A DNA stretch of 35,566 nt, from IMG/VR virus record IMGVR_UViG_3300001851_000258, positions 1 to 35,566 of that record; one strand, written 5' to 3'. Made by a program: the position numbers and the translations under genes. Position 1 is the first letter of the stretch. Each line of letters starts with the position of its first letter. Positions 13,712 to 19,208 of the stretch are shown here, in pieces. Origin of the DNA: a virus. Below the pieces are notes generated by a model. The model had not been told where the DNA came from. It worked only from the letters and a program-made list of their open reading frames with translations, and searched no databases.

Positions 13712-13921
13712 ATGGAACGCTTTAACCGCTGTGACCGTTGTAAATCTCCTCTATCTAGAGACAAAGGGATCTACAAACTAGTCATGAAAGGCAACTTAGA
13801 AGTATCGCTATGTGGGAACAAATGCTTTGACCACTTCACAAACGACATAAAACTAAAAGAAGTTAAGAAAGTAGAGGTTTTAAAATATGAAAGTAATCGC
13901 AATAGACCAAGGTACAGATAG
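13712..13921 (+). CDS. Small zinc-binding protein (69 aa)
   Basis: I chose the ATG at 13712 (MERFNRCDRCKSPLSRDKG) over an upstream TTG at 13655 because GGGGGA lies just before it and the cysteine motif starts right away. Cys7 and Cys10 (C-x2-C) and Cys34 and Cys38 (C-x3-C, in LCGNKCFDHF) form a plausible zinc finger or ribbon. The Lys-rich C-terminus suggests nucleic-acid contact. The last 35 bases overlap the start of the exonuclease gene in another frame, so both are probably co-translated. A DNA- or RNA-binding accessory function is inferred. Confidence 0.6.
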   Translation: MERFNRCDRCKSPLSRDKGIYKLVMKGNLEVSLCGNKCFDHFTNDIKLKEVKKVEVLKYESNRNRPRYR

Positions 13922-14738
13922 CTGGCACGAACTACGCTCTAAACACATCGGAGCCAGTGAAGTACCTGCAATTATGGGAACCTCTGACTTTGGAAACGCT
14001 TATGAGGTATGGGCCGTTAAAACAGGAAAAAAACCACCATTCAAAGGAAACTGGGCTACTCAAAGAGGCACAGAAGCAGAGCCAAAGATTAAAAAACTTT
14101 ATGAAGAACTCCATAACACTCCCCTTCTCCAACCCGTAGTAGAGTTTGAGGAATGGCCAATACTCATGGCCTCCCTAGATGGATACAACGAAGAAATAGG
14201 CTTAGTTGTTGAGTTTAAATATCCCTCGGCTGAAAAACACTATCTAGCAAAAAATAATCAAGTGCCAGCAACTTATGTAGATCAAATCCAAGCACAATTG
14301 ATGGTTACAGGATGCAATACCGCTCATTACGTTTCTTATGATGGGTTTGAAATAGAGGTGGTAGTCGTTCGAGAGGATAAAGTACGCCAGAAAGAGATTT
14401 TAGAGCGTTTAAAAGCATTTTGGAGTTTGGTAGAGACTGACACCCCACCAGAAGGCGCACCAAAAATTTTAGTATCAGAAAACTTAGAGGTTCTTGCTTC
14501 GCGCTATAAAACACTAAGCCAAATATTAGAATATTCTAAAGAAGAACTAGAAATGATCCGCGAACGGATTTGCGAATTGGTTAAAGACAAAAAGGCTGAG
14601 TTTTACGGCCTCTCACTCACTCGCTCCGAGCGGATCGGAAACGTAGACTACAAAGCTATCCCAGAATTGAACGGTGTAGACTTGAACAAATACAGAAAAC
14701 CCTCATCCGAGGTAGTAACCATAAAGGAACTGAAATGA
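13887..14738 (+). CDS. YqaJ-type (lambda exonuclease-like) 5'-3' exonuclease
   Basis: A 283-residue protein with the YqaJ/lambda-exonuclease core: RGTEAEP at 60-66 (Glu63/Glu65), the metal-binding Asp98 in ASLDGY, the E-x-K pair Glu109/Lys111 in VVEFKYP, and the QIQAQLMVTG helix at about 133-142. These are the residues that bind metal and cut one strand from double-strand ends. Beyond about residue 175 there is a helical extension (ENLEVLASRYKTLSQILEYS) like that of phage YqaJ proteins. With the annealing protein at 12020 it forms a Red-type recombination pair. The GAGG before the ATG, inside the previous gene, sets the start. The stop overlaps the next ATG (ATGA). Confidence 0.88.
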   Translation: MKVIAIDQGTDSWHELRSKHIGASEVPAIMGTSDFGNAYEVWAVKTGKKPPFKGNWATQRGTEAEPKIKKLYEELHNTPLLQPVVEFEEWPILMASLDGYNEEIGLVVEFKYPSAEKHYLAKNNQVPATYVDQIQAQLMVTGCNTAHYVSYDGFEIEVVVVREDKVRQKEILERLKAFWSLVETDTPPEGAPKILVSENLEVLASRYKTLSQILEYSKEELEMIRERICELVKDKKAEFYGLSLTRSERIGNVDYKAIPELNGVDLNKYRKPSSEVVTIKELK

Positions 14739-15005: not shown

Positions 15006-15085
15006 AAATACTTTTAATTTCTTTTGGCTATTTGTTCTTTGTTTTACTCGTAATTGCTGTTCTTAAACTCGTAAGGAAAGACTAA
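15002..15085 (+). CDS. 27-residue membrane peptide directly before the lysozyme
   Basis: The peptide consists of a hydrophobic span (MKILLISFGYLFFVLLVIAV) and a short basic tail (LKLVRKD). The gene overlaps the upstream peptide by ATGA and the lysozyme start by TAATG (stop at 15083-15085, ATG at 15085). The positive tail after the span predicts an N-out, C-in orientation, whereas the upstream peptide has its charges at the N-terminus. The pair could act as holin and antiholin or form a hetero-oligomer. Both are far shorter than usual holins. Confidence 0.6.
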   Translation: MKILLISFGYLFFVLLVIAVLKLVRKD

Positions 15086-15681
15086 TGGGAAGCGGAATTA
15101 ACGGCGACAGCCAATATCAACCACCAGATTTAGATAAGAAATTTATTATTAACGAGGCTGGACTAGAACTGGTTAAACACTTTGAATCATTATTTCTAAA
15201 CAGCTACATAGATCCAATTGGTGTGCCAACCATAGGCTACGGAAAAATTAGGTTTAGAGATGGATCAAAAGTTGAGCTAGGGCAAACCTGCACCAAAGAA
15301 CAAGCTGAAAAATGGCTCATCGAAGACCTAGAGGACGAGGGTGCAAAATACGTTCGTTACTATCTAAACGATAAACAAGAGTACGAACTGAATCAGAACC
15401 AATTCTCATCTTTAGTGTCTTTTACGTTTAATCGAGGAGCAGGACGGTTTAGAGACTACATCGCTCCATTCATTAATAAGAATGACATAAGTGGAGCCAT
15501 GACCGCCTTATGCTCTTTAAACTGGGCCGTAGAGAATGGTCAAAAGAAATACTTTCTAGGACTAGACCGCCGCCGCTGGGCTGAAAGATACCTCTTTGAA
15601 GGAAAAGACTGGCGGGCATTTGATACCGTTGCAAAGTTTAAGGCGTTTAAGGACAACAACTATGAATTACTGGGAAAATGA
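15085..15681 (+). CDS. Endolysin, T4/P22-type lysozyme (glycoside hydrolase family 24)
   Basis: A 198-residue muramidase. The catalytic set of the family is present with the usual spacing: Glu34 (KHFESL), Asp43 (Y-I-D) and Thr49 in the signature VPTIGYG, that is Glu+9 and Asp+6 as in T4 lysozyme. The C-terminal half (QNQFSSLVSFTFNRGAGRF and the GLDRRRWAERYLFEG motif) is also typical of the family. There is no signal peptide, so release would need a holin. It is coupled by TAATG to a 27-residue membrane peptide and has AAGGAAAG before the ATG. It is unusual that this lysis gene lies in the early operon. Confidence 0.9.
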   Translation: MGSGINGDSQYQPPDLDKKFIINEAGLELVKHFESLFLNSYIDPIGVPTIGYGKIRFRDGSKVELGQTCTKEQAEKWLIEDLEDEGAKYVRYYLNDKQEYELNQNQFSSLVSFTFNRGAGRFRDYIAPFINKNDISGAMTALCSLNWAVENGQKKYFLGLDRRRWAERYLFEGKDWRAFDTVAKFKAFKDNNYELLGK

Positions 15682-15832: not shown

Positions 15833-15928
15833 ACGTATAAATTATGCAGAAATGTATAAAACTCTTTATAGCCTGTTTATTTTTTCTCAATTGAATGTTG
15901 CTTAAAAACAACAAAATGGAGAATGAAA

Positions 15929-16294
15929 ATGAAAAAAGTAATTCAAGTGATTGATGAAGACGCGGCAGAAAAATATGCAAATGTTCATTATCGTGAAGAT
16001 TCGCGAGAACTTTATGGAAACATAACCCGTGACTTCCTTGCGGGATGCGCTTACGGGCGTGAGCAAGAGAAGAAGAAGCTGGAAATTGCTTTAGATACTT
16101 TAGGCAAGATAGCACTGAGGGTCGATAAGTGTTTGCTCGGTCCACCTATTGATACAGCAAATGATTTTATTGAACGGGCCAGTAGTTCAGATGATTTAAT
16201 TTGTTGGTCTTTTGAATTGGGAAGTCATAGAGCCTATTCAGAATGTGCAATCGAAGCAAAAGAAGTCTTAAAACAAATCGAAGGAAAGGAATGA
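15929..16294 (+). CDS. Hypothetical protein with an MKKVIQV start (121 aa)
   Basis: The ATG at 15929 is preferred over 15923 because the GGAG is 7 bases away from the former and only 1 from the latter. The first seven residues (MKKVIQV) and the upstream leader are nearly identical to those of the next gene, although the rest differs. The body is helical and has an ITRDFLAGCAYGREQEKKK segment like that in many small phage proteins. The C-terminal part contains two cysteines in helical surroundings (DDLICWSFELGSHRAYSECA). The function is unknown. It is likely co-transcribed with the Sm-like gene that follows 3 bases later. Confidence 0.6.
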   Translation: MKKVIQVIDEDAAEKYANVHYREDSRELYGNITRDFLAGCAYGREQEKKKLEIALDTLGKIALRVDKCLLGPPIDTANDFIERASSSDDLICWSFELGSHRAYSECAIEAKEVLKQIEGKE

Positions 16295-16297
16295 AAA

Positions 16298-16567
16298 ATG
16301 AAAAAAGTAATTCAAGTGACCGAAGTTGATGGCGAGGGATTAGAGGCTTTTATTTATGAAAGAATTTTTATTGTGTGCAGATCGTATTTCTATGCCGGAA
16401 CGCTAACGAGAATTTATGACGATTGCGTTTTGTTAGAGGATGCTCGCTTTGTATTGGAAAGCGGAAGCTTTGAAGGAAAAGGAATTGCTAACTCCGAAAA
16501 AGTAAACGGCGGAAAGATTTACGTTACAAAAAACTCAATCGAATCCTTTTTTCAAAGCCACGAATAA
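16298..16567 (+). CDS. Small Sm-like (LSm-type) beta-barrel protein (89 aa)
   Basis: The pattern after the MKKVIQV start ([43 protein letters not shown]) follows the Sm1-style layout: a helix, a strand, a tight Gly turn with Leu, then Asp-x3 and a strand ending in an Asp/Ala. I recall proteins of this type as conserved hypotheticals in many phages and bacteria, but this is memory, not a database result. The AAGGA is 7 bases before the ATG. Its stop lies in the first copy of a 13-base tandem repeat and is followed by the G-rich hexamer gene. An RNA- or DNA-binding role is inferred from the fold pattern. Confidence 0.55.
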
Positions 16568-16597
16568 TGGACACGAATAATGGACACGAATAATGGA
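16559..16597 (+). repeat. Triple 13-base tandem repeat with stop-start overlaps
   Basis: Three perfect copies of CACGAATAATGGA occupy 16559-16571, 16572-16584 and 16585-16597. Each contains TAATG, so each offers a stop overlapping a start. Since 13 is not a multiple of three, the ATGs at 16567, 16580 and 16593 lie in different frames, and only the last opens the long hexamer gene. The first TAA is the stop of the Sm-like gene. Change in copy number would alter which frame is reached by coupling. Confidence 0.85.
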
Positions 16598-16772
16598 AAA
16601 GAAAAAATACTATCGGTTTTGGGATAAATCTAGGGCTAGGGCTAGGGCTGGGGCTGGGGCTGGGGCTTGGGCTAGGGCTGGGGCTGGGGCTTGGGCTAGG
16701 GCTTGGGGTTGGGATGGGGCTGGGTCTAGGGCTGGGTCTAGGGCTTGGGCTTGGGATGGGGCTAAAAAATAA
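16593..16772 (+). CDS. Dipeptide-repeat protein (Arg/Gly/Trp-Ala), 59 aa
   Basis: A frame running exactly from the third TAATG to TAA at 16770-16772. After a short start ([13 protein letters not shown]) it is almost pure X-Ala, with X being Arg, Gly or Trp, plus a few Gly-Trp-Asp and Gly-Ser units, and it ends in Lys-Lys. The underlying DNA is the GGGCTN hexamer array. The next gene starts right after the stop, which supports real coding. All six frames of such repeats tend to be open, so coding is not proven by openness alone. Aromatic, basic, low-complexity chains of this sort could bind nucleic acid or condense. A G-rich site placed between two genes is the alternative. Confidence 0.55.
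16633..16763 (+). repeat. Degenerate GGGCTN hexamer array (G-quadruplex candidate)
   Basis: About 131 bases of imperfect hexamers GGGCTA, GGGCTG and GGGCTT, with small variations (GGTTGGGATGG, GGGTCTAGG). Runs of three or four Gs are separated by two to four bases, which is classic for intramolecular G-quadruplexes on the plus strand DNA or RNA. The array coincides with the dipeptide-repeat gene. The local composition is unlike the rest of the window, which suggests expansion by slippage. Confidence 0.9.
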
Positions 16773-17354: not shown

Positions 17355-17468
17355 ATGTACACGCCAGAAGAACGGCGCAAAAAACATCTAGAAAAAGCCA
17401 AACGTAATTTTATGAAACAACAGTTGGCGATTCGTGCTGCTCTGAAAAAAGAGACATTAACTCAATAG
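17355..17468 (+). CDS. Possible 37-residue basic peptide
   Basis: A short frame encoding a strongly basic helix (MYTPEERRKKHLEKAKRNFM and further Lys residues). It overlaps the 3' end of the minus-strand RusA gene by 59 bases in antisense, and there is no good ribosome site. Such peptides do occur in early phage operons, but the evidence is thin. Confidence 0.25.
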   Translation: MYTPEERRKKHLEKAKRNFMKQQLAIRAALKKETLTQ

Positions 17469-17892
17469 CATTAATTGGCGTATGGGCTGATAGCACGATA
17501 TGACAACACTCATTTTCACCGTCCATTTTTTCAATATTTGATGCCCAGACGTGCTTATCATCAATTCCTAATTGAGCGAAAAAACAATCCTGAACAGCTT
17601 TGATCCGATTAGCTACATCTAGCTTTTTAATCCCACCCTGCTTGTTGTAGAGCCTCGAACGGTTAAAAACGAAAAAGTAATCAACCTTGAAGTGTTCAAC
17701 ACCACCCCAATTTTTAGCCATTAAGTCTTTAATTGAATGAAAATAGGCTTTATGGATAACGGCATACGCCTCACACGATTTTCTGTACTCTTTTAACTCT
17801 CTTGTGGCTACTCTACCAACACCAGGCACATTTCTATAAAGTGCATTTTCAGAAGGGGGAAGGGGAAACCCTGAGATAAAAATAGCGTCCAT
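17410..17892 (-). CDS. rusA: RusA-like Holliday junction resolvase
   Basis: A 160-residue protein with the RusA layout. The N-terminus FISGFPLPPSENALYRN is the 'PPSxN' start of this family. The central KKLDVANRIKAVQDCFFAQL stretch, followed by GIDDKHVWASNIEK, carries the conserved acidic residues (Asp in KLD, in AVQD and in GIDD) that bind metal. RusA dimers cut Holliday junctions, here probably those created by the annealing protein and exonuclease. It is the only minus-strand gene inside the early operon. Its ATG at 17892 shares two bases with the HNH ATG at 17891 (CATG), so it must be expressed from its own transcript or antisense to the operon. Confidence 0.82.
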   Translation of the reverse strand: MDAIFISGFPLPPSENALYRNVPGVGRVATRELKEYRKSCEAYAVIHKAYFHSIKDLMAKNWGGVEHFKVDYFFVFNRSRLYNKQGGIKKLDVANRIKAVQDCFFAQLGIDDKHVWASNIEKMDGENECCHIVLSAHTPINAIELMSLFSEQHESPTVVS

Positions 17893-18181
17893 GAGAAAGA
17901 GAATAGTTAATAAAGAGCTGTTAAAGAACTATAAAACACAGATTTGCGTTATTTGTGGCGTTTTTGGCGTAGATCCAGACCACATTAAACACAGAGGCGC
18001 TGGAGGAGATGATACAGAGGACAATCTAATGCCACTTTGTAGACTACACCACTCTGAAAGGCATCATAAAGGCTGGCACCGTTTTTCTATAAAATACCCT
18101 GTAATTACACAAGAACTGGAAAAGCGTGGATTTGGTTTTGTAAATGAATTTGGTACTTGGAAGTTACGCAAATTAAACTAA
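17891..18181 (+). CDS. HNH nuclease (96 aa)
   Basis: The zinc and catalytic motifs are visible. Cys19-x2-Cys22 is followed by DPDHIKHRGAGGDD (Asp30-His31 pair), the HNH asparagine Asn45 in EDNLMPLC with Cys50, and the H-H-x3-H cluster at 53-58. Small HNH proteins of this kind act in phages in DNA cleavage or packaging-linked cutting, and often sit next to recombination genes. Here the start codon overlaps that of the divergent RusA. There is no clear ribosome site. Homing endonuclease or packaging nickase are alternatives. Confidence 0.8.
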   Translation: MRKRIVNKELLKNYKTQICVICGVFGVDPDHIKHRGAGGDDTEDNLMPLCRLHHSERHHKGWHRFSIKYPVITQELEKRGFGFVNEFGTWKLRKLN

Positions 18182-18419: not shown

Positions 18420-19208
18420 ATGAGCAAGGACGCTCCGAAAATTCTCATATTCGACATTGAAACCGCCCCAATACTGGGTTGGTTCTGGAATTTGTTTCAG
18501 CAAGACATTGCTCTAAATCAAATAGCATCAGACTGGCATATAATGAGTTGGGCCGCAAAATGGCTACGTTCTTCAGAAGTGTTTTACATGGATCAACGAA
18601 ACGCCAAAAAAATAGACGATGACAAAACAATTTTAAAAGCACTTTGGAAGCTATTAGACGAGGCTGATATTGTAGTCACCCAGAACGGAAAAGCCTTTGA
18701 CTCTAAGAAGGTAAACGCTAGGTTTCTGATTAACGGCCTTCCCCCTCCCTCCCCTTACAAGCACATAGACACTAAGCAGTTAGCTAAGAAAAACTTTGCC
18801 TTTACATCTAATAAACTCGAATACCTCTCCCACAAGATTAATAAGAAATATAAGAAGCTGAAACATTCCAAATTCTCAGGCTTTGAACTGTGGAAAGAGT
18901 GTCTAGCGGGAAATATAGAAGCCTGGGAGGAGATGGAAAAATATAATAAGCACGATGTACTAGCCACAGAGGAACTATATTTATCCCTAGCACCATGGGG
19001 AACAGGAGTAGACCTCAACCCATACATGAGTGGCGGGTTTAGATGTAAGGACTGTGGATCAGACAATCTTACCAAGCAAGGATTTAAGATAACAAAAAGC
19101 GGAAAGTATCAGCAATGGAAGTGCCGTGATTGTGGGTCTTGGACAAATTCCATCGGAGAAAAAAACAATCTATTCAGCAAAGAGCGTAGAAAAGAATTAA
19201 AGGGCTAA
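18420..19208 (+). CDS. DEDDy 3'-5' exonuclease with C-terminal zinc ribbon
   Basis: A 262-residue protein. The first exonuclease motif is DIET (Asp12, Glu14). The second is NGKAFD with Asp94. The third is YNKHD (Tyr175, Asp179), making it DEDDy type. The fold is RNase H-like, as in the proofreading subunits and RNase-H-like nucleases of phages. Residues 205-245 add a zinc ribbon (Cys209, Cys212, Cys235, Cys238 in RCKDC..KCRDCG), which probably binds DNA or RNA ends. No polymerase is present in the window, so it may act in recombination, degradation or repair rather than proofreading. Its stop overlaps that of the convergent minus-strand gene by two bases (19206-19207). Confidence 0.8.
   Translation: MSKDAPKILIFDIETAPILGWFWNLFQQDIALNQIASDWHIMSWAAKWLRSSEVFYMDQRNAKKIDDDKTILKALWKLLDEADIVVTQNGKAFDSKKVNARFLINGLPPPSPYKHIDTKQLAKKNFAFTSNKLEYLSHKINKKYKKLKHSKFSGFELWKECLAGNIEAWEEMEKYNKHDVLATEELYLSLAPWGTGVDLNPYMSGGFRCKDCGSDNLTKQGFKITKSGKYQQWKCRDCGSWTNSIGEKNNLFSKERRKELKG

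Follow-up and report, generated by a model that had tools for sequence, protein, structure and literature searches.

An Sm-fold protein and a hypervariable dipeptide-repeat protein are encoded by a mobile phage gene pair

Background

A gene predicted to encode a small Sm-like protein and, joined to it by a short stop-start repeat, a gene for a protein made largely of dipeptides raise the question of whether the two form one unit and, if so, what such a unit does. Both lie in IMG/VR virus record IMGVR_UViG_3300001851_000258, of which positions 1-35,566 were analysed; this whole stretch of 35,566 nt is referred to here as the window. The initial annotation took the two genes for a possible RNA-handling module built around G-rich sequence, and mentioned similar arrangements in other phages.

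Results

The locus and the junction between the two genes

The two genes are joined by a 13-bp repeat, CACGAATAATGGA, present in three perfect copies that span the stop codon of the Sm gene (Table 1). The stop-start repeat and the dipeptide-repeat gene originally described behind the Sm gene are indeed found there. The ATGs of the three TAATG junctions lie at 16567, 16580 and 16593, and the ORF opened by the first of them runs for 8 codons and stops exactly on the last. The chain of overlaps thus extends to the repeat gene, and a re-initiating ribosome could be passed to that gene through the 8-codon ORF. The near relative L002 has a single TAATGG joining the Sm and repeat genes, and an array of about 75 bp. 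No terminator-like site was found between the two genes in the window, and the single promoter-like match there is below the number given by shuffled sequence; known RNA families were not found in the window.

Table 1. Features of the gene pair and its surroundings, in window positions
Feature	Position	Strand	Evidence or remark
YqaJ exonuclease	13887-14738		neighbour
Lysozyme	15085-15681		neighbour
25-bp perfect repeat over the Sm gene start	16295-16319	+	second copy at 15926-15950
Sm-fold protein, 89 aa, family A	16298-16567	+	ORF; AlphaFold pLDDT 90; PDB neighbours Sm/LSm; more than 100 relatives
13-bp tandem repeat, three copies	16559-16597	+	three TAATG stop/start junctions; joins both genes
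8-codon ORF, MDTNNGHE and stop	16567-16593	+	stop overlaps the repeat-gene start; putative re-initiation relay
Dipeptide-repeat protein, 59 aa	16593-16772	+	ORF; basic leader, then (R/G/W-A/S) dipeptides; relatives have equivalents after their Sm-like gene
Hexamer array GGGCTN, about 22 copies	16631-16763	+	within the repeat gene; 22 GGG runs; G-quadruplex motif
RusA resolvase	17410-17892	-	neighbour
HNH	17891-18181		neighbour
DNA polymerase exonuclease-like gene	18420-19208		neighbour

The body of the window's repeat protein is the 6-bp array read as dipeptides, with Ala replacing the Ser of the (X-S)n pattern, and the protein ends in GAKK. The neighbouring genes show that the surroundings are a phage recombination and replication region. 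As a separate observation, the 25-bp direct repeat covers the start codons of both the Sm gene and a 123-aa gene (15923-16294); the two products both start with KKVIQV, which suggests an exchange at the translation start.

The 89-residue protein and its relatives

The Sm-like proteins fall into two families, A (which includes the window protein) and B. With an alignment of 45 relatives as input, AlphaFold gave a family A model with a mean pLDDT of 90 and the element order helix-b1-b2-b3-b4-b5 (H14-18, E22-27, E31-39, E43-54, E73-77, E81-86), that is, the N-terminal helix and five-stranded barrel that characterize the Sm/LSm superfamily. The 50 PDB matches that Foldseek listed for this model are all Sm/LSm chains or LSm-type domains, the best structural Z being 11.0 (rmsd 2.0 over 70 residues) against SmAP 1jri. 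The 89-aa protein is therefore confidently modelled as an Sm fold, and the strand layout first read from its sequence agrees with both the modelled order and the PDB neighbours. Hfq is absent among the matches listed, which are archaeal and eukaryotic Sm proteins.

Although the predicted fold, a helix and five strands, is that of archaeal SmAP and of the eukaryotic Sm/LSm rings, family A differs from this superfamily in that its sequences stay below the family thresholds, its RNA-contact residues are not conserved and its ring is presumed. Pfam LSM (PF01423) matches weakly and below threshold in 2 of the 45 members (best E 0.065), the NCBIfam MM0924 family protein (NF041655) gives a weak profile match in 18 of the 45 (best E 2e-4), and searches of Pfam and PHROGs found no family for A. 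The alignment has an Sm1-like spacing, G-x-L-x-G-V-N-x-x-C, in beta2/beta3. Canonical Sm proteins contact RNA through the Asn of Sm1 in loop 3 and the R/K-G of Sm2 in loop 5. Placing these positions by means of the modelled strands, we found no conservation of the residues expected for uridine contacts across the 45 aligned members: the loop 3 consensus is G-V-N-x-x-C-V-L and that of loop 5 is Y-V-Q-x-x-x-I-E-S-F, with the R/K-G positions variable. A canonical uridine pocket should consequently not be assumed. The best viral structure matches listed include the 'RNA binding protein' of Gordonia phage Reyja and DUF6948 proteins, Sm-like proteins that share about 10-20% sequence identity with the 89-aa protein.

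Scans of viral contigs found 119 family A relatives, of which 80 were kept, and 388 relatives of family B (consensus GKxYFIRTVT...AAWIADTGRF...NEVEP), for which no Pfam family was found. Family B yields a confident model but weak direct PDB matches (best E 0.46, Z 4.2), so it is assigned to the Sm fold through the homology of its profile with that of family A (probability 97.4%, E 1.4e-11). The fold of the Sm part of the pair is a known one, of which this part forms a new subfamily.

The two genes occur together

To count as an array gene under our strict test, a gene had to contain at least 5 uninterrupted dipeptides, mostly R/G/W. Family A has 77 loci with enough downstream sequence for this test, the window and phage record L001 among them, and 70 of these have an array gene within about 120 nt downstream of the Sm gene. 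For family B the array directly follows the Sm-like gene in 57 of the 71 kept loci with room, and in 73/78 by a looser test, whereas the control ORFs of the same loci are followed by an array in only 17 of 1993 cases (0.9%). Searching in the opposite direction, with DNA arrays defined as GGTCNN x6, we found 52 of 69 first arrays directly preceded by an Sm-like gene (26 of family A and 26 of family B), and no A or B gene directly upstream of the other 17. An unrelated spring-water phage, MW202825, carries an Sm-like gene of 46% identity and then two tandem (X-S)n genes. The expectation that similar small proteins precede repeat genes elsewhere is thereby confirmed, on a larger scale than the initial annotation supposed, and treating the Sm and repeat genes as a module is well supported by their recurring pairing in relatives. 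Chance or pure low complexity is ruled out by these counts against the control ORFs together with the dN/dS values given below. The Sm and array genes overlap by exactly 4 nt in 27 family A and 43 family B cases, which is only about half of the pairs.

The order of the genes is not invariant: at L148, L189 and L099 the array gene precedes the Sm-like gene, or flanks it on both sides. Array genes with the leader MIKKSIYKRNI, which also occurs in some family A pairs, are found at L160, L188 and L191 with no Sm-like gene recognised directly upstream. No fusion of the Sm and repeat genes was seen in the fetched loci. An apparent one in L231 and L241 proved to be an upstream G-Y/D/N repeat in another frame; this G-Y/D/N/C dipeptide repeat (GGC NAC units) starts at about position 880 of L231, and likewise in L241, just upstream of the family B Sm gene.

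The second gene encodes a protein

The leader that precedes the dipeptides differs between the families, M-x-R-x-x-K-Q-K-Y/W in family A and M-N-x-A-x-L-R-T-G-F-D in family B. The basic Lys motif is present in 39/67 leaders of A and 0/71 of B, and the R-T/A-G-F-D type in 59/71 of B. This correlation of leader with Sm family could be explained by co-inheritance in one cassette alone. One dipeptide pattern is written with varied hexamers (NGGTCT, NGGTCG, NGGTCA, NGGAGC and NGGGCT), the serine codon changing between arrays (TCT, TCG, TCA, TCC or AGC) while the pattern is retained. Within arrays, variation is confined to the first base of the X codon (1.51 bits), the other five positions of the hexamer being nearly fixed (0.03-0.38 bits). 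A diversity-generating retroelement was rejected as the source of this variation, which is not A-specific: NGGAGC arrays keep the A of AGC, with an entropy of 0.08 bits at the first Ser base. Alanine-rich repeat proteins of the same phages (in L005, L018, L056, L078, L152, L283 and others) also vary mostly at one codon, NGG giving R/W/G in some and NAC/NAT giving D/Y/H/N in others, and variation at the first base may be more general among the repeat genes of phages.

The same pair is present among bacterial genes in six Nitrospinota genomes (6/77 searched), one copy lying within a 1.6 Mb contig. A divergent HTH_3 (XRE-type) gene lies upstream and a Mrp-type ATPase gene downstream in at least five of the six genomes, with gyrA- and gyrB-type genes nearby where enough sequence is available. 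Here the second gene overlaps the Sm gene by 4 nt and is non-repetitive (for example, VNRRNRFRLRILVKSASGSKSWANSWSGPFTMKFWRFSWSGKLSRSSSWAG), and the small residues of its product still alternate (SASGSKSWANSWSGPFT) despite the loss of the DNA repeat. Comparison of the three most closely related genomes gives it a dN/dS of 0.11-0.13, and comparison with a more distant fourth genome gives 0.3-0.5; by these values, the non-repetitive version is under purifying selection. Three observations thus show that the second gene encodes a real protein and is not mere repeat DNA: its leader goes with the Sm family, arrays use different serine codons, and the Nitrospinota copies show purifying selection.

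These observations bear on the suggestion that the array is a meaningless slippage product, a functionless low-complexity artefact with no link to the Sm gene. The arrays of near-identical phages do differ by multi-unit indels, as slippage would produce, although the assembly of repeats from short reads can give rise to them as well. This explanation is already contradicted by the recurrence of arrays beside two divergent Sm-like families, by their family-specific leaders and by purifying selection in the chromosomal copies, and we regard it as hardly credible.

The strict period of two invites a structural reading, in which the second protein would be an extended beta or fibre former with S/A on one face and R/W/G on the other, and the Sm ring its nucleator or chaperone. 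Silk-like GA and GS repeats are the model for such alternation of small residues. The alternation kept in the non-repetitive Nitrospinota protein and the Ala-for-Ser replacement in the window, as in GA repeats, would fit this, but a dipeptide pattern follows from any 6-bp repeat in the DNA, and we consider a fibre former very doubtful.

Codon bias and the G-rich sequence

The nucleic acid itself could alternatively be the working part, with the G-rich array DNA or mRNA bound by the Sm-fold protein and acting as a G-quadruplex, a recombination hotspot or a ribosome-slowing run of NGG codons. The array Gly codons of family A are GGG in 94% of cases, compared to 18% in flanking genes; the GGG runs and G4 motif of the window array point the same way, and the mosaic boundary described below shows that an array can lie at such a junction. 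However, the hexamer changes between arrays while the dipeptide pattern stays constant, many Gly codons in family B arrays are GGA (129/581), and the Nitrospinota copies keep the protein at low dN/dS with no repeat at all. An NGG bias is moreover what we would expect of arrays homogenised by concerted evolution in which Gly and Arg units (GGG, AGG, CGG) have to interconvert with Trp, whose only codon is TGG. We therefore judge a nucleic-acid-level element to be decidedly unlikely: the richness in G looks like a by-product of the codons and not the basis of function, and the proposal of a module built around G-rich sequence was not borne out, given the differing hexamers and a chromosomal version that keeps the protein pattern without the DNA repeat. 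The same GGA codons and the requirement of Trp for TGG weaken ribosome drop-off at NGG codons, known from the literature, as the main cause of the bias.

The composition of family A arrays is R 0.29, W 0.28 and G 0.38, with a variance equal to the binomial, so that it is controlled no more tightly than random draws from one pool, and the neighbour frequencies of the three residues are near random; composition rather than sequence therefore seems to matter. Family B arrays vary in composition more than random draws from one pool. The array proteins carry a charge of about +10 and 7-8 Trp in 60-73 residues, while their Sm partners are at about -3; half of the repeat peptide is Ser and about a fifth is Gly.

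The pair moves as a cassette

The Sm gene and its array are transferred between unrelated viruses as a cassette of about 0.45 kb. In several phage pairs (L036/L039, L039/L061, L001/L016, L006/L008, L067/L069 and L012/L018) they are the sole similarity in about 3 kb, the shared segment starting 2 to 35 nt before the Sm start and ending at or near the end of the array. The window and L002 have Sm genes that are 72% identical and unrelated upstream sequences, and are identical from inside the array onward. The mosaic boundary thus falls in the array (window 16593-16772, L002 1903-2010). Recurrent neighbours of the cassette are exonucleases, single-strand annealing proteins and replication genes; they are mixed, and no fixed partner gene was found. 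Copy number varies, with several array genes at L092, L138 and L109 and two Sm and array units at L206. The tandem array genes of L092, L138, L109 and L202 each have a near-identical leader, with up to about eight in L092.

Two small overlapping genes that are mobile as a unit and can occur in multiple copies per locus could also be a membrane-active or toxin and neutraliser-like cassette, in which the R/W-rich peptide would do harm in the manner of short Arg/Trp antimicrobial peptides and would be bound and restrained by the acidic Sm-fold protein translated just ahead of it; such a pair would persist as an addictive or competition module. The charge contrast between the partners and the divergent XRE-type regulator adjoining the chromosomal copies are in keeping with this. 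Yet a peptide so rich in Ser and Gly is unlike compact antimicrobial peptides, extra array genes without extra Sm genes would be odd for a neutralised toxin, and the cassettes are located in early DNA-metabolism regions, which together make a toxin pair unlikely.

Discussion

Our preferred reading, which we hold tentatively, is that the cassette provides an Sm ring with cationic, Trp-rich tails that bind nucleic acid. A laterally mobile pair of genes would yield two products, the Sm-fold protein and a short low-complexity protein that is cationic and rich in tryptophan and whose translation is coupled to that of the Sm gene. The Sm-fold protein would assemble as a ring of 6-7 subunits and, by holding the repeat protein at its family-specific leader, would display several R/W/G-S tails together. 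In these tails Arg would contact the phosphates of single-stranded nucleic acid and Trp would stack on it, Gly and Ser serving as flexible spacers, and the tails might coat, condense or sequester phage or host RNA or ssDNA early in infection. Slippage of the 6-bp array would be tolerated, and the array free to vary, because composition rather than order matters. The modelled fold, the recurrence beside families A and B, the 4-nt overlap, the selection, the near-random order of residues in family A arrays, the charge contrast, the family-specific leaders and the location among recombination and replication genes count in favour of the Sm ring with tails. The unconserved RNA-contact residues, the lack of a fusion, the 17 of 69 arrays without an Sm-like gene, the exact overlap in only half of the pairs and the spread in composition count against it.

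The nearest analogy is to the eukaryotic Sm/LSm proteins with RG-rich tails. SmD1, SmD3 and LSm4 have C-terminal tails rich in RG, and like the phage pair they combine an Sm domain with an Arg-rich dipeptide low-complexity chain; in the phages, by contrast, a gene of its own encodes the chain, which is translationally coupled and has a conserved leader, and the dipeptides are RS, GS and WS and not RG. The open-access literature yielded no papers on such repeats or on a phage Sm pair, and the two-gene system of Sm and dipeptide-repeat proteins looks new, with no known counterpart found. A set of 50,697 phage genomes contains one record for each family, the two records sharing a spring-water source, and neither family occurs among 72,556 plasmids. 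The two families are found in hundreds of IMG/VR contigs from uncultured viruses, and this is a widespread phage gene pair that has been hidden from standard collections.

We suggest, with some reserve, that the pair may represent an undescribed class of phage module, in which a mobile, coupled Sm-fold protein and a hypervariable (R/W/G-S)n partner form a multivalent nucleoprotein assembly. If so, it would be a two-protein counterpart of the Sm proteins with Arg-rich tails. Low-complexity chains of Arg, Trp or Gly with Ser resemble, by analogy, those in eukaryotic RNP condensates, and the pair would place an Sm fold joined to a condensate-type chain in bacteria and phages. The chromosomal, non-repetitive version offers a small and tractable pair for asking what such chains do.
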